From positions 1 to 43,695 of the IMG/VR virus record IMGVR_UViG_3300020186_000285: a stretch of 43,695 bases of DNA. One strand, 5' to 3'. Within the stretch, counting starts at the first letter, position 1. Every line of letters starts with the position of its first letter. The position numbers and the translations under genes were made by a program. The notes under the pieces are model-generated. The model was not told the DNA's origin and did not search any database. It saw only the letters and a program-made list of their open reading frames with translations. Positions 3,000 to 43,695 of this stretch are shown piece by piece. The stretch is from a virus.

Positions 3000-3421
3000 G
3001 CGCTAAAGAGCTTATTGACCAGGCGTTCAAAAAGTGGGTGGAGCGGCTTGGGCTGATGTGGTGGGACGTGGACGTGCATTTTTACGATGACCCAGGTGAG
3101 ATTGTGCGCTTGTTTCGTCAAGCTGACAATGAGGACGTTGTCGCAGCTTTTGTTGATTCTAATTGGATGTATGCCCACGCCAAGATAAGTATTAATCTGC
3201 CCGCCTTTGATGAGATGGAGCCACGCGAAATAGAGAAAATTATCCTGCACGAGCTAATTCATATCCTTCTCAACGAAATGCGCCAAGGCGAGTTGCACCA
3301 TGAGGAACGGGTGGTGACGGGGCTGACAAAGGCTTTTTTCTGGGTGGTGGCTGCCGTAGAGGAAGAGTTAAAATCAGGGGCTGCGCCGCATCATGGCGCA
3401 AGACAGGAAGAAACGCTGTGA
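2996..3421 (+). CDS. putative zinc metallopeptidase-like phage protein
   Basis: A 141-residue protein. The HExxH zinc-binding motif is visible as HELIHILLNEM near residues 84-88, preceded by EIEKIIL, the usual hydrophobic helix. A downstream glutamate-containing helix (HHEERVVTGLTKAFFW) could give a third ligand. This compact layout resembles small phage and SprT/anti-restriction-type metalloprotease domains. Substrate unknown; it may be a protease or only a zinc-bound scaffold. It is coupled by ATGA to the preceding gene and by GTGA to the next. Confidence 0.6.
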   Translation: MSAKELIDQAFKKWVERLGLMWWDVDVHFYDDPGEIVRLFRQADNEDVVAAFVDSNWMYAHAKISINLPAFDEMEPREIEKIILHELIHILLNEMRQGELHHEERVVTGLTKAFFWVVAAVEEELKSGAAPHHGARQEETL

Positions 3422-9957: not shown

Positions 9958-10335
9958 TTACTCGGCGCGCTTTTGTCGGCGTTTGAACTGTGCCAGCGGG
10001 CGCAACGCCTCGACAGTCTCGCGCTTGAATACAAAGCTAGTGCCGCGCTTGGCATCGGGCGTAAGCGTCTTGGCGACGTAGATTTGATGCTTGACCCACG
10101 CCAAGCTCACGTTGAGGCTTGCGGCCACTTCTTTGGCCGTCATCGCCTCGGACTGATAGGCCTCTTTAAAACGGTCGAGTGTGGCTTGCAGGAAGGTCAG
10201 GTCGCCGTTGAAATTGCCGTCCGCCGCCAGATGTTTCATATCGTAAATGTGGTAGGTGAGCGTGGCACGCGCCACGCCCAGATAGGCAGCGGCCTCGGCG
10301 GTACTGTAAAGATTACCTTTGTCGGTTTGTATCAT
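9958..10335 (-). CDS. double helix-turn-helix regulator, autoregulated
   Basis: A 125-residue protein starting MIQTDKGNLYSTAEAAAYLG. Two successive excisionase/MerR-like HTH units are visible: STAEAAAYLGVARATLTYHI and TAKEVAASLNVSLAWVKHQI. Each is followed by a short wing and helix. The tail is basic (LAQFKRRQKRAE). SD AAAGGAG lies 8 bases before the ATG. The promoter (TTGACA, 17 bp, TATCAT) lies directly upstream, and its -10 and the start codon sit in the two arms of a perfect 12-bp inverted repeat, so it most likely represses itself. A half-site (GTATCAT) also occurs at 11066 in the divergent late-region control DNA. Candidate switch protein of the late region. Confidence 0.75.
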   Translation of the reverse strand: MIQTDKGNLYSTAEAAAYLGVARATLTYHIYDMKHLAADGNFNGDLTFLQATLDRFKEAYQSEAMTAKEVAASLNVSLAWVKHQIYVAKTLTPDAKRGTSFVFKRETVEALRPLAQFKRRQKRAE

Positions 10336-10369
10336 GGCTGCACTCCTTTCGGATATACAGCCATGATAC
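10329..10369 (-). promoter_or_regulatory. perfect 12-bp inverted-repeat operator
   Basis: GTATCATGGCTG at 10329-10340 and its exact reverse complement CAGCCATGATAC at 10358-10369 are separated by 17 bases. One arm contains the -10 hexamer of the minus-strand promoter and the other contains the start codon of the regulator. The spacer holds its SD. A protein bound to both arms would block transcription start. The left part of the promoter-proximal arm precedes the expected start site, so an RNA hairpin is less likely than a DNA operator. Confidence 0.65.
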
Positions 10370-14689: not shown

Positions 14690-16247
14690 ACGACGACGCA
14701 CACCAGTACGGCGCACAGCGCACAAGGCGCAACCGACACAGCAACCCGTTGCCGAAATCATCGGGCGCGCGACCTACGGGCTGGCGCAACCGTCCGTTTT
14801 TCGCAGTCGCGGCGCGGTGGTGAGTGTAGACCAGACGATCCCCGATTATGCGTTCTACGACCTGTTGCGGCGCGGCAAGCAGCCTGGATACAAACTGGGC
14901 GCGCTCTTTGCCAAGCGTATTGAACACATATTCGCTATGTGGGTGTTAGGGCGCGGCGTGACCGTTGCGCTGACCGAATCCGGCGAGGCCGACAACGAGG
15001 ATGACCCGCGCAACTACACCGACGCAGAACTGGCAGACTTCATCAACGCCAACCATAGCACGCTCATGGAAGTGAAAGAGGATGCGCTGGGGCTGGGCGA
15101 CCAATACATCTTCGTCAACGCCGATGGCAGTCTGTCTGTGCCCAGCCCCGACACCGTGGAAGAAACACGCGACCCGCTGGACTATCGCACGGTAACGAGC
15201 GTCAAAATTACAACCAAGTATCCTGAAATAACGATAGAGGACTTGTACACCGCCGTTGACCGTGTGACGACCTGGAAGAAGGGTAACGAGGTTATCCGCA
15301 CCAAGACCTACGCAAACCTCATCGGGCGCATATCCTATGTGCATATCACGCACGGCATGTCGGGCAATGAGACGCACGGGCATAGCATCCATGAGGATTT
15401 GCTTAAATTGTACGACCAGTACGATGACGTGATCCACAAGCAGCTAGACGGGGCCAAGCTGCTCGGCAATCCCATCTTGGCCTTTACGGGGCTTGAGGAT
15501 TTACGCGCCGTCATCGACGCTAACAAGCCGCAGACGCCGGAGACGTACACCGACCAGGGCGGCAACGAGATCACGCGTCCCATGCTCAACGTAGACACCA
15601 ACAGTATCATGCTGATTGGCAAAGGCGGCGATGGCAAATTTATCAGCCCGCCCGTTGGCTTCACGGCTGACACGCAACAGGCGCTCAAGACGCTATTCCT
15701 GCTGCTGCTTGACCGCACGGGCATCCCCGAATTCATTTGGGGCAACGAATTGAGCAGCGCACGCGCCAGCGCCGATGTGCAGTTGACGCAATGGGCGCAT
15801 GACATTGAGGGTATGCAAAAAGCTGACGAACGTTGGCTGCTTGACCTATGCTTGATTTGGCTGGCGTGGCGTGCGCTGATTGACCCGCTGATTGTGCTAG
15901 ACGCACTCGCAACCGACTGGCCGCCGGTACTGGATGAAAACCAGGAGTTGAAGCTGAAAGCAATTGAGACGGCACGCGCCAACAACTTGCTCACAGACAA
16001 GACGACGTTGGAACTCTTGCAACTGGTAGACGATGCGGGCGAGGAAGTGGAGAAGGCGCAAGGCCAAGCCCAGGCCCGTGCGGCTGACGAAATGGCACGC
16101 ATGGAAGCGCAGGCCAAGATCGCCGCTGCCAATGCGCCGCGACAGGGTGCGGTGGGCGAAATGGCGGGGTATAATGGTACGGAAGCCGCTGCGATTGTGC
16201 AAGGCGCTATACGTCAGTTAGCCGGAGGTGATTACTCTCCCCGATGA
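14673..16247 (+). CDS. portal protein
   Basis: A 524-residue protein; ATG preceded by GGGGGG and overlapping terL by 17 bp. Core features are DQTIPDYAFYDLLRRGKQPG, KRIEHIFAMWVLGRGV, the clip region GDQYIFVNADGSLSVPSP and the C-terminal helix LLLLDRTGIPEFIWGNELSS. A glutamine/alanine-rich tail (EEVEKAQGQAQARAADEMAR) ends the protein. The last residues GDYSPR and the stop codon come from an inserted 38-bp palindrome (16228-16265), so the native C-terminus was changed. It forms the dodecameric channel for DNA entry and exit. Confidence 0.85.
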   Translation: MAVAHRRRRTPVRRTAHKAQPTQQPVAEIIGRATYGLAQPSVFRSRGAVVSVDQTIPDYAFYDLLRRGKQPGYKLGALFAKRIEHIFAMWVLGRGVTVALTESGEADNEDDPRNYTDAELADFINANHSTLMEVKEDALGLGDQYIFVNADGSLSVPSPDTVEETRDPLDYRTVTSVKITTKYPEITIEDLYTAVDRVTTWKKGNEVIRTKTYANLIGRISYVHITHGMSGNETHGHSIHEDLLKLYDQYDDVIHKQLDGAKLLGNPILAFTGLEDLRAVIDANKPQTPETYTDQGGNEITRPMLNVDTNSIMLIGKGGDGKFISPPVGFTADTQQALKTLFLLLLDRTGIPEFIWGNELSSARASADVQLTQWAHDIEGMQKADERWLLDLCLIWLAWRALIDPLIVLDALATDWPPVLDENQELKLKAIETARANNLLTDKTTLELLQLVDDAGEEVEKAQGQAQARAADEMARMEAQAKIAAANAPRQGAVGEMAGYNGTEAAAIVQGAIRQLAGGDYSPR

Positions 16248-16325
16248 ATCGGGGAGAGTAATCACACAGACGCATATTTGTATAGACGTTGTGCGGCTTA
16301 TACCTCCCCTTTGAAAAGGGGAGTA
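16228..16325. mobile_element. IS200/IS605-like double-hairpin element
   Basis: A perfect 18-bp inverted repeat with a two-base loop spans 16228-16265 (arm GTGATTACTCTCCCCGAT). A second hairpin, CTCCCC-TTTGAAAA-GGGGAG, follows about 40 bases later (16304-16323). It contains no ORF and neither hairpin is followed by a U-tract, so these are not ordinary terminators. The first hairpin is preceded by TTAC inside its arm, the tetranucleotide ISHp608 is known to target. It provides the portal stop codon (16245-16247). The same 38 bp occur reversed at 37342-37379. Probably a non-autonomous relic. Confidence 0.55.
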
Positions 16326-25579: not shown

Positions 25580-26143
25580 ATGCCTTTCGACCAGGGCAGT
25601 CCTCAATTTGGTTTGACGGATTGCAAAATTCAGACATGGGCTAGTGCCGGAATCTATTCCGGCACGGCTGTGGACATTATGAGCGTGCAAATGATGGGCG
25701 TCACGATCCAGTTTATACAGGCACAACTCACGGGCGACAACCGCATTACCGCCACCGCTGCATTGGCGATTGGCGGCACATGCCAGATTCGCTTTGGCGG
25801 TGTAAGTCCTGTGGCGCTGGCGATCATGTTGGGACGCGTCAATACCACCATCTCCAGCGTGATTCAACAGGGTATCAAAGGCGGCGACCGTATGCCGTAC
25901 TTTGGCATCATTGGCAAGGCTGAGGCGGCAGAGGGGTTGGGGGATACGTGGGTCTATTGTCCAAAAGTCAAGCTGATGAGCGACTTCACGCTGGCGATGC
26001 TGGAGTATGGCGCGTTTGTGATTCCCGAAGTCACATGCCAGTTGGTTGACGACGACACCTATGGCGTGGTCAATATCATCACGCATCCAACCAGCGTAGA
26101 GATTACGACCTTCCCGCCGCCCAATATCGCGGCACTGAGCTAA
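25580..26143 (+). CDS. major tail (tube) protein
   Basis: A 187-residue protein, MPFDQGSPQFGLTDCKIQTW, beta-rich with ITATAALAIGGTCQIRFGGV and YCPKVKLMSDFTLAMLEYGA. SD AGAGGGG precedes it. Location immediately before the tail chaperone pair and the tape measure is diagnostic. Forms the tail tube. The gene is followed by TAAGGAG, which would have served the next gene before an RNA element inserted. Confidence 0.75.
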   Translation: MPFDQGSPQFGLTDCKIQTWASAGIYSGTAVDIMSVQMMGVTIQFIQAQLTGDNRITATAALAIGGTCQIRFGGVSPVALAIMLGRVNTTISSVIQQGIKGGDRMPYFGIIGKAEAAEGLGDTWVYCPKVKLMSDFTLAMLEYGAFVIPEVTCQLVDDDTYGVVNIITHPTSVEITTFPPPNIAALS

Positions 26144-26156
26144 GGAGAAGTTGTCA

Positions 26157-26516
26157 GTTACTCCCCCTTAAAAGCGGGGAGCTTGTCTCTGTCACCCTAG
26201 CGATACTCTGCTAAGTACGAGACGTTTGGCGTACTGAGAGACGCCCTGCTAGACGAATCTAGCAGCGATTGCGAGAGGTAACTTACTCTCGGTTCTGAAT
26301 GTTTTACACACGGAGAATCTTAGTCCGTGCAACCCACAACATTCACTTGTTAAGGTGCGCTTGAGCCGTTACCTCTGGCGTACCAGAGTGTCTTGGCACA
26401 GATGTAGTGTACCACGTTTTGAGGTTGTTTATCGTGTCAGATTGTTGACAGATTCAGGGGATGCAGGAGCAGGGCGCAATTCCCCACCCCGATGAATCGG
26501 GGCGTACCCTTGCGCC
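26157..26516 (+). ncRNA. orphan HEARO / IscB-omega-RNA-like element
   Basis: About 360 non-coding bases interrupt the tail operon. Stems visible: CTCCCC/GGGGAG (26161-26181); GGCGT/ACGCC (26228-26245); CTGCTAGA-CGAA-TCTAGCAG (26246-26265); a long-range pair GAGGTAAC (26275-26282) with GTTACCTC (26368-26375); GAATGTT/AACATTC (26297-26344) enclosing CACGGA/TCCGTG; CTCTGG-CGTA-CCAGAG (26373-26388); and GGCGCAA/TTGCGCC (26473-26516) enclosing CCCCGAT-GA-ATCGGGG. Bases such as GTCACCC, TCTGCTAAGT, AGTCCGTGCAACCCAC and the 3' GGGGCGTACCCTTGCGCC match my memory of HEARO RNAs, the guide RNAs of IscB. No IscB gene follows. It lies between an SD (TAAGGAG, 26141) and the next ATG (26523). Confidence 0.6.
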
Positions 26517-26522
26517 AAAATT

Positions 26523-27008
26523 ATGGCAGAGGAAGAACTCAAGCCGACGTTGGGCAAACAAATGCGCCAGATGCGCGAACAGGGCGTAGTGCTGCCCTTC
26601 CCATCCGGCAATAACTACCGCGTGCGCGTGGTGGGGGCAGCGGCCTTGCTACGGCGTGGCAGTCTGCCCAACGTGCTGCTCTCCTTCGTGAACGAGGCGA
26701 TCTACGGGGGGGTGACAGCCGACAGGATTGATGCCTTTATGACCCTACGCGACAAAGAGGAACACAACATTGAATTTCTCGATAGCTTGAAAGTCTGCTG
26801 CGAGGAAGTGTTTCTGGAGCCGCGCATCGTAGACGAACCAACAACGGACGATGAAATGTCAATCGCAGATGTGCCACTGGTTGACCAAGCGTGGGCTTTT
26901 GACCTGGCCTTTGGGTTTGCAAGAGAACTGCGCCCCTTTCGTCCTGAACAGGAAGCTAATGTGGTCAGCCTACCTGTCGCTGAAAATGTACCACAGACGA
27001 CCGAGTGA
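26523..27008 (+). CDS. tail assembly chaperone
   Basis: A 161-residue protein starting MAEEELKPTLGKQMRQMREQ, then VLLSFVNEAIYGG and FLDSLKVCCEEVFLEPRIVD. The family resemblance is to phage tail chaperones encoded between tube and tape-measure genes. There is no SD in the 20 bases before the ATG. The likely original SD is 380 bases upstream, separated by the RNA element, so initiation now must rely on something else. Overlaps the next gene by 50 bp. Confidence 0.65.
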   Translation: MAEEELKPTLGKQMRQMREQGVVLPFPSGNNYRVRVVGAAALLRRGSLPNVLLSFVNEAIYGGVTADRIDAFMTLRDKEEHNIEFLDSLKVCCEEVFLEPRIVDEPTTDDEMSIADVPLVDQAWAFDLAFGFARELRPFRPEQEANVVSLPVAENVPQTTE

Positions 27009-27306
27009 TGACCTGGCGGAAACAAATAGCATTGCGGCTTACTGTGTAGACGGAGCCGTGCTGTGGTTTGGCGTCACGATTGAAAATGCGCTGGGCGAAA
27101 GAGAGAAGGTGACAGTGGGCAAAGACACGCAGTACCGGCCTTTGTACACGTTATCGCAACTCCTTGACCCAGCGTTTCGTTTGCCACGCCCGTTGCCTGA
27201 ACCGCGCAAGCGCGCACAGACGCAAGCGGGCGGTCTAGCGGCGCTGATGGCAATGGCAGGCGTCAGGCGGTATGCCTATGTAGGGCCAGAGGCCAGGCCG
27301 GTGTGA
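26959..27306 (+). CDS. second tail chaperone-region protein
   Basis: A 115-residue protein, MWSAYLSLKMYHRRPSDDLA, with SD AGGAAG before the ATG. A later ATG at 26986 is possible. Content includes YTLSQLLDPAFRLPRPLPEP and a basic tail. Its frame is +1 relative to the preceding gene with a 50-bp overlap, the arrangement used by G/GT chaperone pairs joined by ribosomal frameshifting. No clear slippery site is seen, so independent initiation is preferred. Confidence 0.55.
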   Translation: MWSAYLSLKMYHRRPSDDLAETNSIAAYCVDGAVLWFGVTIENALGEREKVTVGKDTQYRPLYTLSQLLDPAFRLPRPLPEPRKRAQTQAGGLAALMAMAGVRRYAYVGPEARPV

Positions 27307-27312
27307 GCCTAA

Positions 27313-27765
27313 TTAGGGAATTGAGCCGCTGCAACTGGCGATCACATATTGGCCTTCTGAGTAGGTTCGGTGAACGAGTTTGCCGTCAATGTGAATTTCG
27401 CAGCCAATGCGGGCGGACTGTTCATCATTCTGTACGGCGAGATAAACGAAGTCGCCGCGCTTGGCGTTGCGCTCATCCACAATAGCGGTGCGTGCGCCGT
27501 CACAGATGCTTACTGATTTTTGCGATGTGCCGCTTGGCATCTCGTAGGTGACATCGAAGCCGTAGCAGCCGCCCCAATCGCGGGCGGTGGTGACTTTGTA
27601 TACGATGCGATGCGTAGACGGGGCTGTATCGGCATAGCTTGGCATATTCAAGGCGACAACAAGCACAAGGACGAGTAGGCCAATCACGAACAGGGCAAAG
27701 ACGCCAATGGTAGCCAGGGCTTTGCCGCAGCCACTTGATTTCTTTTCGGGTTGAAGCGCGTACAT
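27313..27765 (-). CDS. MmpS-like membrane-anchored protein, moron
   Basis: A 150-residue protein; ATG at 27765 has AAGGAG six bases upstream. One N-terminal membrane span (ALATIGVFALFVIGLLVLVL, to about residue 42). It is followed by a beta-rich extracytoplasmic domain: YKVTTARDWGGCYGFDVTYE, VYLAVQNDEQSARIGCEIHI, and YVIASCSGSIP. The paired cysteines and DGKLVHRTYSEG turn resemble MmpS-type accessory domains. It lies on the opposite strand between chaperone and tape-measure genes, as host-benefit genes often do. Possible superinfection-exclusion or envelope function; unproven. Confidence 0.6.
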   Translation of the reverse strand: MYALQPEKKSSGCGKALATIGVFALFVIGLLVLVLVVALNMPSYADTAPSTHRIVYKVTTARDWGGCYGFDVTYEMPSGTSQKSVSICDGARTAIVDERNAKRGDFVYLAVQNDEQSARIGCEIHIDGKLVHRTYSEGQYVIASCSGSIP

Positions 27766-27870
27766 GAGATTCTCCTTGACAACGAATAGTTTGCTTTCAG
27801 GCTCGCGCAATGGCAACTCGGCAACAATTGACAATTGACGTAGCGCGAGACTGACAAAGGACGTAAGCGC

Positions 27871-33844: not shown

Positions 33845-36259
33845 ATGAACAATAATCGCCTAACCAAAGCGTTATCGAGGGTAATCAAGAAAGTAAGGGA
33901 CGAGCGCATCCTGGGTACTTTAGGACGCGTCAACGCCGACGGCACAGTCACCGTCGTGTGCGAAAGTCGCCCTGCGAACGTGTGGATACGTCTCGACAGC
34001 GGAACCATCATCGACCTGCCCAACACGGGCAAGGGGCGCGTACCACTGCGCGCCAATCTGCCTGTGCAGATGATACGTTTACACAATGGCGACCTGGCTT
34101 TGGATGGGCAAGTGGACGCTTTGCTCGAAGGCGACACAGGGCAGCCCGACGAGTATGGGGTGTTGCCTCATCCCTTCACCGCGCATACTGACGTGCCAGC
34201 GACCTACACGGGCGCGGGCGGCTTCGTCTTGCGCGTCAAAGCGGCGGTTACCGGTGTGGAGTTTGCGGATGTTGGCGTGACCAACGGCAATGCTCATGAC
34301 CATCTAGGCGGTGACGGCGCACAGATCAACCACACCACGCTCAGTAACATCGGCACAAACACGCACGCGCAGGTAGACACGCACATTGCGGCGACCGCGG
34401 CGCATGGCGCGACGGGTGCGGTTGTCGGTACAACCAACGCTCAAACACTGACCAATAAAACACTCGATAGCACGAACATCAGCACGCTTACGGCCAAGGT
34501 GACACCCGTTGATGCTGACAGTTCAGTCATTGTCGATAGTGCGGCGGCGAATGTATTTAAGGCCACGACATACACTAATATCAAGGCATTTCTCAAGACC
34601 TACTTCGACACGCTTTACAACCTGTATGTCCATCCCAACCACACGGGCGACGTAACAAGTGTGGCCGACGGAGCAACCACGATTGCCGCCAATGCCGTGA
34701 CAACGGCCAAAATCCTTGATGCCAACGTGACCAACGCCAAACTTGCGAACATGGCGCAGAACACCATCAAGGGGCGCATTACGGCATCCACGGGCGTTCC
34801 TGAGGACTTGACCGCTACCAACGTGCGAACCATTATCAACGTAGCCAGTGGAGCCGACGTGACAGGCACGGCGATTACGGCGTTGGCTGCCAAAGTAACG
34901 CCTGTGGATGCCGACGCGGTGGTCATCACCGACAGCGCAGCGGCGGACGCGCCCAAGCGCACGACCCTTACGAATTTTAAGGCGTTTCTCAAGACCTATT
35001 TCGACACGCTCTATGGTTTGCTTGCCTCGGCGAATACGTGGACGGCGGTCAACACCTTCAGCAGCCGTGTAGATGCGCCGATTGTGCGCGCCAATAGCGC
35101 GGCAGGGTTGCGGATGGAGGATGACGCAGGCGTATTGGGCGTGTTTGTCCAGGATGCCCGTGGTTATGTCGGCGTCAACACGGACACACCTGCGGTGATG
35201 ACCCCGACGTTTACGCACACGTCAACAGTGTTGTCGTTGTTGCAGGTGGGCGGTAAATCATACGGGCGCATTGTGTCACGCGGCTCCGTCAATGGTGCGT
35301 TTGACATTATCGATACGGGCGCAGGGGCGGATCTAAAATGGATGCGACTGATCACTGACGGGGGCATTACCAAGTTTTACTCAGTGACCGATGCAGACAG
35401 TGTCCTTACTGACGATATCCTCGTCATGGATCATGCGTATGGTTATGTCGGTGTCAACACGGATACACCTGCGGTGATGACCCCGACGTTTACGCACACG
35501 TCAACAGTGTTGTCGTTGTTGCAGGTGGGCGGTAAATCATACGGGCGCATTGTGTCACGCGGCTCCGTCGATGCTGCGTTTGACATTATCGATACGGGCG
35601 CAGGGGCGGATCTAAAATGGATGCAACTGAACACTAACGAGGGCATTACCAAGTTTCTCTCAGTGACCGATGCAGGCGGTGTCCTTACTAACAATATCCT
35701 CGTCATGGATCATGCGACGGGCAAAGTGCTGTTTGGTGTAGCGACTGGCGGTGCGTCTGTGCTCGGCGTCAAGGCTGGCACGTCCACGAACGACGCGGCC
35801 TTAGGTGGGGTGCTGTATGTGACGACGACGGTAGCGGGCAATGTAGGGACGGGCGAAGATGACTTAGCCAGCTACACTGTGCCGGCGAATACGTTGGCGG
35901 TGAACAATCAGAGCTTGTGGGTTGAAGCAAGCGGAACGATTACATCGAATGTAAATGGCAAAGAAATTCGGCTAAAGCTGGGTAGTGAGTCAATTATTAT
36001 TTGGACTCTGCCAGTATCCGTCACTGCGTACTGGAAGATAAGGGCAAGGTGCTTGCGTACCGGAGCAGCAACGCAAATCTGGACGGTAGATTATGGATAC
36101 TCGACCACAGGTGGCACTCATGTTTCAGCAACCATAACAACCCCATCGGCTCTCACGCTATCTAGCTCCAACGTGCTAAAGGTGACAGGGACAGCCACAT
36201 CGAATAATGACATTCAAATTGGCACATTCATCGTTGGCTATGACGATACAAACACGTAA
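33845..36259 (+). CDS. tail fibre protein with repeated modules
   Basis: An 804-residue protein. The N-terminal ~110 residues ([40 protein letters not shown]) should anchor to the tail. After it come fibre repeats: [20 protein letters not shown] and [20 protein letters not shown], each followed by the [12 protein letters not shown] helix, and [12 protein letters not shown]-like collar motifs. Two tandem 93-residue modules ([20 protein letters not shown]) are near 440-625. The C-terminal part (~690-804) is beta-rich and likely host-specific. A trimeric fibre is expected. Confidence 0.75.
35162..35719 (+). repeat. 279-bp tandem duplication in the fibre gene
   Basis: Unit 1 at 35162-35440 and unit 2 at 35441-35719, each 279 bp (93 codons). 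The first ~190 bases are almost identical, with a few changes such as GGC/GGT and ACG/GAT positions. The last third has diverged more, mostly at coding positions. A recent in-frame duplication that lengthens the fibre shaft. Confidence 0.85.
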
Positions 36260-37030: not shown

Positions 37031-37097
37031 GATTTGTTTCCTTTTGGCTAGTGGTGCGTTAGGCGTCTCGTGTGCGCCTGCGTTCAATTATGTTTTG

Positions 37098-37126
37098 ATT
37101 ATAGCACATTGCTATACGTTTGTCAA
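37098..37126 (-). promoter_or_regulatory. perfect sigma-70 promoter for 37030 and 36770 genes
   Basis: On the minus strand TTGACA (37126-37121), 17 bp, TATAAT (37103-37098). Downstream the leader AACATAATTGAACGCAGG and GCGCACACGAGACGCC is shared with the promoters at 39061 and 39706. This copy lacks the 18-bp palindrome of the other two. Confidence 0.85.
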
Positions 37127-37251: not shown

Positions 37252-37415
37252 CGGAACTGCGCGACCTGGACATTGCCGCCAATCGTCTTGGAGAGTTGGG
37301 AAGCATTGGCTCAATTGGAGAAACTGCCAGTTGGGACATTCGTGATTACTCTCCCCGATTCATCGGGGAGAGTAATCACTCCAGCGTGTGGCGAGGCTAT
37401 GGTCAACCGACACCA
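37252..37415 (+). pseudogene. coding relic interrupted by a palindromic element
   Basis: The plus strand reads PPIVLESWEALAQLEKLPVG then TFVIT up to a 38-bp palindrome, and continues after it as PACGEAMVNRHH before colliding with the minus gene 37416-37631. SWExLxxLExLPVGTxV resembles the start of small phage proteins that I recall, so this looks like the decayed N-terminal end of one. No SD or intact start. The rest of the 37031-37415 gap consists of the promoter and the two IS-like fragments described separately. Confidence 0.35.
37342..37379. mobile_element. 38-bp palindromic element, second copy
   Basis: Arms GTGATTACTCTCCCCGAT (37342-37359) and its exact complement (37362-37379) around TC. 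It is the exact reverse complement of 16228-16265. Lack of U-tract argues against a terminator. Probably the end of the same IS200/IS605-like non-autonomous element as at the portal gene. Confidence 0.6.
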
Positions 37416-37631
37416 TCAAAGCGTTTGCATTGCTTCGTCGATTAACGCTCTCACGGCGTTGGAAGCGTTTGAACTCTTGCTTTTCAGCCACTCAATTTGC
37501 GGCTGGGACAGGCGCACCGTTAGACGCACGGTGTCGCCATCCGGGTCGACCGGCTTGCGGCCAGCGCCGGGACGTGCACCGCCGGACATTGGCTTGGTGT
37601 TGACGTTTAAGATAGTGATTTTTCCGTTCAT
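37416..37631 (-). CDS. ribbon-helix-helix-like DNA-binding protein
   Basis: A 71-residue protein. GGARPGAGRKPVDPDGDTVR is the common basic leader of phage RHH/regulatory proteins. It is followed by LTVRLSQPQIEWLKSKSSNA and SNAVRALIDEAM, a ribbon-helix-helix. SD AAAGGAAAA lies upstream, directly after the repeated leader RNA (37646-37727). Likely a small repressor or partition-type DNA binder. Confidence 0.7.
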   Translation of the reverse strand: MNGKITILNVNTKPMSGGARPGAGRKPVDPDGDTVRLTVRLSQPQIEWLKSKSSNASNAVRALIDEAMQTL

Positions 37632-37645
37632 TTTCGTTTTCCTTT

Positions 37646-37727
37646 GGTGTTTCGGCCTTCTGGCCTCATTCAGCGCCGGTCAATTTCCGGTCAGACACCG
37701 GGCAGTTTTGCGACCTGCCCAAGTCGA
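37646..37727 (-). promoter_or_regulatory. repeated structured leader RNA, copy 1
   Basis: An 82-nt segment nearly identical to 38168-38249 and 38702-38783, just before the SD of gene 37631-37416. On the minus strand it can fold as GGGCAG/CTGCCC, then GGTGT/ACACC enclosing CCGG/CCGG and GGCC-AGAA-GGCC hairpins. The SD (AAAGGA) follows immediately after ACACC. Copy 1 differs at one base (GACTT for GACCT). Confidence 0.6.
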
Positions 37728-38147: not shown

Positions 38148-38167
38148 CTTCTTTTTCCTTTTCCTTT

Positions 38168-38249
38168 GGTGTTTCGGCCTTCTGGCCTCATTCAGCGCCG
38201 GTCAATTTCCGGTCAGACACCGGGCAGTTTTGCGACCTGCCCAGGTCGG
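38168..38249 (-). promoter_or_regulatory. repeated structured leader RNA, copy 2
   Basis: The 82-nt segment preceding gene 38147-37743, differing from copy 1 by one base near its end. Two mutually exclusive hairpins are possible at its 5' side: GACC-TGGGCA-GGTC or GGGCAG-GTCGCAAAA-CTGCCC. That hints at switching. Confidence 0.6.
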
Positions 38250-38675: not shown

Positions 38676-38701
38676 TTTCGTACGTTCCTCGTGTGCGTGT
38701 C

Positions 38702-38783
38702 GGTGTTTCGGCCTTCTGGCCTCATTCAGCGCCGGTCAATTTCCGGTCAGACACCGAGCAGTTTTGCGACCTGCCCAGGTCGG
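38702..38783 (-). promoter_or_regulatory. repeated structured leader RNA, copy 3
   Basis: The 82-nt segment preceding gene 38675-38367. One base differs from copy 2 so that the 3' arm of the first hairpin reads CTGCTC. The change turns a G-C pair into a G-U pair and keeps the stem, which supports selection on the RNA fold. It starts five bases after the stop of gene 38998-38789. Confidence 0.6.
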
Positions 38784-38998: not shown

Positions 38999-39060
38999 GA
39001 TTGTTTCCTTTTCTCTGTGCGTTAGGCGTCTCATGTGCGCCTGCGTTCAATTATGTTTTT

Positions 39061-39089
39061 ATTATAGCAGACAATTTCAAAATTGTCAA
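39061..39089 (-). promoter_or_regulatory. perfect sigma-70 promoter with palindromic operator
   Basis: On the minus strand TTGACA (39089-39084), 17 bp, TATAAT (39066-39061). The 18-bp palindrome GACAATTTCAAAATTGTC (39070-39087) overlaps the -35 and fills the spacer, a classic repressor site. It drives the unit 38998 to 37416. Confidence 0.85.
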
Positions 39090-39643: not shown

Positions 39644-39690
39644 GTGTGCGCCTGCGTCTCGTGTGCGCCTGCGTCTCGTGTGCGCCTGCG
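39644..39690 (-). repeat. 17-bp tandem repeat in a 5' leader
   Basis: GTGTGCGCCTGCGTCTC occurs at 39644-39660 and 39661-39677, with 13 bases of a third unit at 39678-39690. It is an expansion of the leader element found once behind the promoters at 37098 and 39061. It may alter leader RNA structure. Confidence 0.85.
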
Positions 39691-39705
39691 TTCAATTATG
39701 TCTTG

Positions 39706-39734
39706 ATTATAGCAGACAATTTTGAAATTGTCTA
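39706..39734 (-). promoter_or_regulatory. sigma-70 promoter with palindromic operator
   Basis: On the minus strand TAGACA (39734-39729), 17 bp, TATAAT (39711-39706). The 18-bp palindrome GACAATTTTGAAATTGTC (39715-39732) is the same operator as at 39070 in the other orientation of its two central bases. It drives the ParB-like gene. Confidence 0.8.
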
Positions 39735-43397: not shown

Positions 43398-43695
43398 ATG
43401 CCAAAAAAAATTGAAAGTTTGACGCCAGAGCAAGAAGCCTTGTTGCCCGTTTGGACTAAAAAGTGGATTGAGATTGGCCTGTCGTGCGAACCATTGGATC
43501 GAGCCGCAGCCGAGGACGCCGTGTGCCGCGCTTATGCAGTAGCAAATCTGCCACCTCCCAAACACTTTGTTGTCTGCGATAGCCCGCTCAGCGGGTCAAT
43601 CGTTGGGGCCATCGTTGGGGCCAGCGTTGGGGACAGCGTTGCGGCCAGCGTGCGCGCCAGCGTTGCGGACAGCGTTGTGGCCAGCGTTACGGCCA
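43398..43695 (+). CDS. SV-repeat DUF6745-like protein, N-terminal part
   Basis: ATG at 43398 with AGAGGA upstream. MPKKIESLTPEQEALLPVWT, then KKWIEIGLSCEPLDRAAAED and PPPKHFVVCDSPLSG form the N-terminal domain I associate with DUF6745 proteins. From about residue 68 the five-residue SV repeat starts (IVGAIVGASVGDSV). The frame runs off the window end in the repeat and continues at base 1, where the array resumes. One extra base is present if the ends are joined directly. Confidence 0.8.
   Translation, partial: MPKKIESLTPEQEALLPVWTKKWIEIGLSCEPLDRAAAEDAVCRAYAVANLPPPKHFVVCDSPLSGSIVGAIVGASVGDSVAASVRASVADSVVASVTA

Follow-up and report, generated by a model that had tools for sequence, protein, structure and literature searches.

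Organization of the locus

The window analysed here is the whole 43,695-base stretch of a single IMG/VR virus record (G000), in which the gene for the major tail (tube) protein and a gene for a tail assembly chaperone-like protein are separated by 379 non-coding bases (26144-26522). The sequence TAAGGAG begins at 26141, and the chaperone ATG at 26523, a start backed by alignment with relatives, has no Shine-Dalgarno sequence immediately upstream; both observations had been made in an earlier note on this DNA and were confirmed. The features of the insert and its surroundings are as follows.

25580-26143, plus strand: major tail (tube) protein gene, upstream neighbour (phrog_4971, E 1.8e-12)
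26144-26147, plus strand: Shine-Dalgarno GGAG, read from the sequence, now 375 nt from its own start codon
26153-26522, minus strand: probable ORF-less IS200/IS605-type element with TnpB-family ends (gap absent in relatives, both end hairpins matching those of the element in record L069, no ORF)
26153 (right) and near 26519-26522 (left), minus strand: element ends
26473-26516, minus strand: left-end hairpin with the core CCCCGATTCATCGGGG at 26487-26502 (matches the L069 left end, query 18-44, 85%)
26520-26525, minus strand: left flank CATAAT, candidate TAM/target motif, equivalent to the plus-strand start codon ATG (CAT spacing in four left ends)
26523-27008, plus strand: tail assembly chaperone-like gene (DUF7391), downstream neighbour (PF24117, phrog_4336)

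The element, with limits at about 26153 and 26519/26522 (about 370 bases), extends a little beyond 26157-26516, the interval first outlined, and is present as a single copy within the record. No ORF of at least 80 aa lies wholly within 26144-26522 on either strand, and the plus-strand fold of the insert reaches -134.4 kcal/mol, compared with -112.8 kcal/mol for shuffled sequences (z -4.33; none of 100 shuffles as good), so that the description of a strongly folded non-coding stretch holds. The predicted plus-strand fold brings the ends of the insert near each other. The 8-bp long-range pair described earlier (26275-26282 with 26368-26375) is present, as part of a 12-nt pairing with 92% complementarity; however, a local hairpin competes with it, and the fold predicted for the L063 homologue contains no counterpart.

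Several other features of the record were observed. An ORF at 26851-27306 overlaps the chaperone gene in another frame, as is typical for tail chaperone pairs produced by frameshifting, and between the chaperone and tape-measure genes lies an ORF on the minus strand (27313-27834) that includes a hydrophobic, membrane-like segment. Intergenic modules of about 100 nt (37627-37726, 38149-38248, 38683-38782) and about 53 nt (37054-37106, 39017-39069, 39662-39714) recur, are 82-97% alike, and may serve small genes as repeated leaders or promoters. A 279-nt tandem duplication (94%) occurs at 35154-35711 within a large ORF (33845-36259), and 12-nt tandem repeats occupy positions 1-516, with related sequence at 43634-43661, such that the contig ends may join within one array.

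Evidence for insertion

Relatives were drawn from the tail-tube alignment, which comprised 49 IMG/VR records, the chaperone gene being recognised in about 25 of them. Since only -1 to about 60 nt separate the two genes in all of these approximately 25 relatives, and 2 nt in the closest one (L015, tube protein 63% identical), the 379-base stretch is interpreted as an insertion, in agreement with the earlier proposal of an insertion into a tail operon inside a translation-initiation region. Junctions of the form TAAGGAGACTTAAGATG or TAGGAGACGCTATG occur among the relatives, with TAAGGAG-N5-9-ATG-like junctions in L028 and L034-L036, and the notional removal of 26153-26519 or 26153-26522 places GGAG 8 or 5 nt upstream of the ATG, respectively. 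None of the tail-gene relatives carries the element, and no identical empty site was found among them.

An insert at this position could have been domesticated as a cis-regulatory leader that bridges the Shine-Dalgarno sequence to the ATG or controls translation of the chaperone in some other way. The strong fold and the proximity of its ends are compatible with such a role, and some initiation route must exist since the chaperone is presumably needed; nevertheless, no relative carries the insert, the copy in L063 does not lie before that gene, and conservation falls on a minus-strand guide RNA and on transposon ends, described below. A leader function is accordingly considered quite improbable.

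Relatives and shared ends of the element

Transposon guide RNAs normally occur together with a nuclease gene, and TnpB represents the ancestor type of CRISPR-Cas12. A pattern scan of IMG/VR using the right-end hairpin retrieved L063, a full-length ORF-less homologue in another phage, together with the shorter relatives L066, L069, L070, and L072. The L063 homologue shares 208 identical columns with the window, compared with 98-158 in shuffles, and was the sole match of a scan with an internal pattern. In L069 and L070, the right-end hairpin forms the right end of a minus-strand tnpB gene, and L069 holds a complete element consisting of a left-end hairpin, a 378-aa TnpB (PF07282, PF01385), and the right-end hairpin. 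The ends in the window match those of L069 over 27 nt at 85% on the left and 34 nt at 79% on the right, in the same order and orientation; subterminal hairpins at both ends are thus common to the element and a coding member of the family. Together with the lack of an ORF, these matches support the earlier assignment to an ORF-less guide-RNA element of the IS200/IS605 superfamily.

Family searches, in which the controls were positive, found no tnpB (PF07282) in the record and no Y1 TnpA (PF01797) in the record or in four related records, so that movement and any guide activity would have to be provided in trans. A blastn search against phages and plasmids gave no match, a strict pattern applied to genome contigs gave two chance matches only, both inside methanogen dehydrogenase ORFs, and the matches of a left-end hairpin scan were mostly unrelated hairpins.

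Reduced forms and similar palindromes were also observed. At about 10200-10355, L066 holds an internally deleted TnpB element in which the tnpB start is fused to the C-terminal/reRNA end. The short copy in L072 (about 3110-3248), near a phage gene start, is reRNA-only, scores 74 bits with the covariance model R1 introduced below, and carries a TTCG hairpin on the 5' side of its stem 1; a left-end hairpin was not seen there. A pattern match in L139 (1561-1576, minus strand) is a perfect palindrome, GTCAGTTACTCCCCGATTCATCGGGGAGTAACTGAC, of right-end-like arms near AATTATG and is perhaps a minimal relative. In the window, perfect 38-nt palindromes (GTGATTACTCTCCCCGAT..ATCGGGGAGAGTAATCAC) at 16228-16265 and 37342-37379 have a core equal to that of the L069 left-end hairpin and are possibly solo mobile palindromes or terminators.

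Guide RNA scaffold on the minus strand

In the TnpB reRNA of ISDra2, the loop of stem 1 forms a pseudoknot with the 3' end, stem 4 carries a UUUA loop, and the flank supplies the guide (PMC8612924, PMC10097598). The corresponding features on the minus strand of the window are listed below.

26153-26250: TnpB reRNA (omega-RNA) scaffold core (R1 60.9 bits; pair counts on alignment A4)
26228-26245: stem 1 (GGCGT/ACGCC) and pseudoknot loop (100% paired in 12 sequences; double changes in three of five pairs)
26153-26158: pseudoknot 3' strand ACUGAC (partner CUCAGU at 26233-26238, five of six pairs; covarying GUCAAC/GUUGAC-type pairing)
26161-26181: stem 4/right-end hairpin, CTCCCC..GGGGAG with a UUUA-type loop (sequence and R1 alignment), equivalent to stem 4 of the ISDra2 omega-RNA (PMC10097598)
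26246-26265: hairpin H5, CTGCTAGA-TTCG-TCTAGCAG, directly 5' of stem 1 (inverted repeat I7)
26153-26399: predicted full stand-alone RNA before the guide, about 247 nt, with a putative start (folds better than shuffles)
26406-26411: putative extended -10 TGGTACACT (TGGTATAAT in L063), conserved between the window and L063
26133-26152: predicted guide AACTTCTCCTTAGCTCAGTG, adjoining the reRNA scaffold on its 3' side, the arrangement of ISDra2 (PMC8612924)

The covariance model R1 was constructed from ten TnpB reRNA (omega-RNA) 3' ends (alignment A3), with the window and L063 left out. Its match at 26153-26250 on the minus strand reaches 60.9 bits (E 6.1e-19), the second-best in the 43.7 kb being 12.3 bits, and covers stem 1 and the pseudoknot as well as stem 4, UUUA loop included; L063, L072, and L066 score 41.6, 74.2, and 54.2 bits, respectively. 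Pair counts were obtained from alignment A4, which contains 12 related sequences including the window; both the inclusion of the window and the relatedness of the sequences call for caution in reading them. Across stem 1 and the pseudoknot, 97.7% of positions pair, compared with 77.7% in shuffled and 18-45% in slid alignments, and 24 cells show double changes compared with 5.3. Stem 1 includes a U-A to C-G double change. In the pseudoknot, the outermost pair of the window is broken (C-C) and the other five are retained, and two pairs fail in L063. A helix like H5 was recognised by eye in the ORF-less L072 and in TnpB-encoding elements.

The stem 1, pseudoknot, and stem 4 scaffold of TnpB reRNAs is therefore present, whereas the tnpB ORF whose 3' end a canonical reRNA overlaps is absent, there being no PF07282 match in the record and no ORF in the element. 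Judged by its sequence, the RNA is a stand-alone homologue of TnpB reRNAs and not a canonical tnpB-embedded reRNA.

The earlier note had instead read the insert as a plus-strand HEARO, that is, an omega-RNA of IscB. The 5' hairpin, GUCA..CUCCCC..UUAAAAG..GGGGAGCUUG, does look like a HEARO 5' end, and the HEARO model (RF02033) reports a score of 13.3 bits on the element; the likeness is confined to this first hairpin, the cut-off is 83 bits, and true HEAROs beside eight plasmid iscB loci, which served as a yardstick, score 59-142 bits. No Rfam family reached its gathering score anywhere in the whole stretch, and a search for iscB (PF14239, RRXRR) found no match in the record, nor in any control genome. 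The minus strand, in contrast, is matched by the TnpB model, and the related element L069 codes for TnpB and not for IscB. When R1 was applied to the iscB loci, HEARO 5' ends were matched on the opposite strand in six of eight (12-34 bits; L006, L007, L009, L010, L012, and L013, upstream of iscB), and the ends of IscB and TnpB elements thus resemble each other once one of them is reverse-complemented. The first call is understandable because HEARO 5' ends mirror TnpB reRNA 3' ends; this likeness in reverse complement also serves as a warning for similar annotations. The HEARO reading is already refuted by sequence and structure, and the chance that it is nevertheless right is negligible.

The predicted stand-alone RNA, its putative promoter, and its guide

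The predicted RNA at 26153-26399 (minus strand) folds better than shuffles (z -3.63), as does the homologous RNA of L063 (z -3.28). Upstream hairpins that differ in sequence are common to the two RNAs when matched by hand, and a MAFFT consensus fold of the window and L063 backs the reRNA core only, not the upstream helices; any function of the upstream domain is hypothetical. At the putative -10, TGGTANANT is common to the window and L063. A consensus promoter scan reported no promoter at 26406-26411 on the minus strand, where the -35 box is poor.

The predicted guide is antisense to the Shine-Dalgarno sequence and the stop region at the 3' end of the tail-tube gene. The earlier suggestion that the tail-tube gene end acts as guide thus fits the position directly 3' of the minus-strand scaffold. 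The possibility that such anti-Shine-Dalgarno guides match other ribosome-binding sites more often than shuffled guides do was tested and was not supported.

Candidate target motif and location between the Shine-Dalgarno sequence and the start codon

On the element strand, CAT occurs 21-23 nt before the left-end hairpin in the window (CCATAAT), L063 (ACATAAA), L069 (TCATAAA), and L089 (TCATAGG). In the window, L069, L089, L090, L091, and L092, a divergent ORF of 90 aa or longer has its start codon at this CAT; the left ends of L090-L092 are less certain, as they were set with the help of CAT. The adjacency fails in L088, and the corresponding ORF in L063 has just 16 codons. For comparison, 20% of CATs in 0.82 Mb of background virus-contig DNA open an ORF of at least 90 aa, and 6.3% are the first ATG of such an ORF under a stricter criterion applied to part of this background.

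A CAT-type target or TAM, which we infer from the left flanks, combined with the loss of genic insertions would explain the location: the element would lie between the Shine-Dalgarno sequence and the ATG because its target motif is CAT and insertions within genes are selected against. Alternatively, selection against genic insertions alone would yield the same pattern of start-codon adjacency.

Proposed mechanism and state of the element

The sequence evidence makes it highly probable that the element is a non-autonomous, PATE-like member of the IS200/IS605 type that bears a stand-alone guide RNA for TnpB. A trans-acting TnpA would have moved it to a target that contains CAT, which reads ATG on the opposite strand. 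A minus-strand RNA of about 250 nt would end in a flank-derived guide (AACTTCTCCTTAGCTC...), a TnpB from the host or from another element would load the predicted RNA, and the loaded TnpB would cut the empty site, where CAT adjoins the guide sequence, so that the element is retained. Activity of the RNA in trans is a realistic prospect, with chances slightly short of even.

The main rival to this mechanism is a decayed relic, in which the identity of the element is the same and its activity has been lost: a TnpB element reduced by deletion to its ends and reRNA, immobile, without a functional guide RNA, and tolerated by the phage. The single copy, the lack of a detected TnpB or TnpA in the record, the loss of the outermost pseudoknot pair, and the proof from L066 that internal deletions occur in this family are all in keeping with decay. 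However, the window and L063 are distant in sequence and yet keep the reRNA core and a similar architecture, their RNAs each fold better than shuffles, and the double change in stem 1 maintains pairing. Decay is a substantial possibility, to which we give rather less than an even chance.

Relation to known systems

Stand-alone, trans-acting omega-RNAs of IscB elements have reportedly been found in Ktedonobacter. The element in the window resembles HEARO/IscB omega-RNAs (RF02033) in having a transposon-end guide RNA, a flank-derived guide, and a terminal hairpin that is similar as its reverse complement, but it differs in strand and polarity, lacks the HEARO core, and has TnpB rather than IscB as its partner family. 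With the IS200/IS605 TnpB reRNA of ISDra2 it shares the pseudoknot between the stem 1 loop and the 3' end, a scaffold of about 100 nt, and a right-flank guide (PMC8612924, PMC10097598); unlike ISDra2, it has no overlapping tnpB ORF, and its 5' part, about 150 nt long, is non-coding and folded. Among the ends-only IS605 derivatives already described, a PATE-like one of 271 nt in Halanaerobium, which keeps the last 58 nt of tnpB, likewise has both ends and no transposase gene and is thought to be mobile in trans (PMC7290912). In the phage element, by comparison, tnpB coding sequence is not recognisable, a scorable reRNA stands alone, and a second phage holds a distant homologue that also lacks an ORF. 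The phage setting and the TnpB-type guide RNA are also reminiscent of TldR, the phage-encoded nuclease-dead relatives of TnpB, although no TldR/TnpB protein was found in the present case and the guide matches the flank of the element, not a known host gene (PMC13418256).

Implications

A CAT target, read as ATG on the other strand, would offer a simple account of insertion sites between Shine-Dalgarno sequences and start codons, and makes predictions on the TAM and on empty sites. The presence in two phage records of an ORF-less TnpB guide RNA with a folded 5' domain suggests that RNAs of this kind can spread alone and borrow TnpB. It is conceivable, although we regard it as unlikely, that the ORF-less lineage persists in phages by exporting its stand-alone guide RNA, using the TnpB of host or co-infecting elements to cut the empty tube/chaperone site of rival or sister phages; if this were true, the element would represent a protein-free, trans-acting, gene-drive-like weapon between phages.
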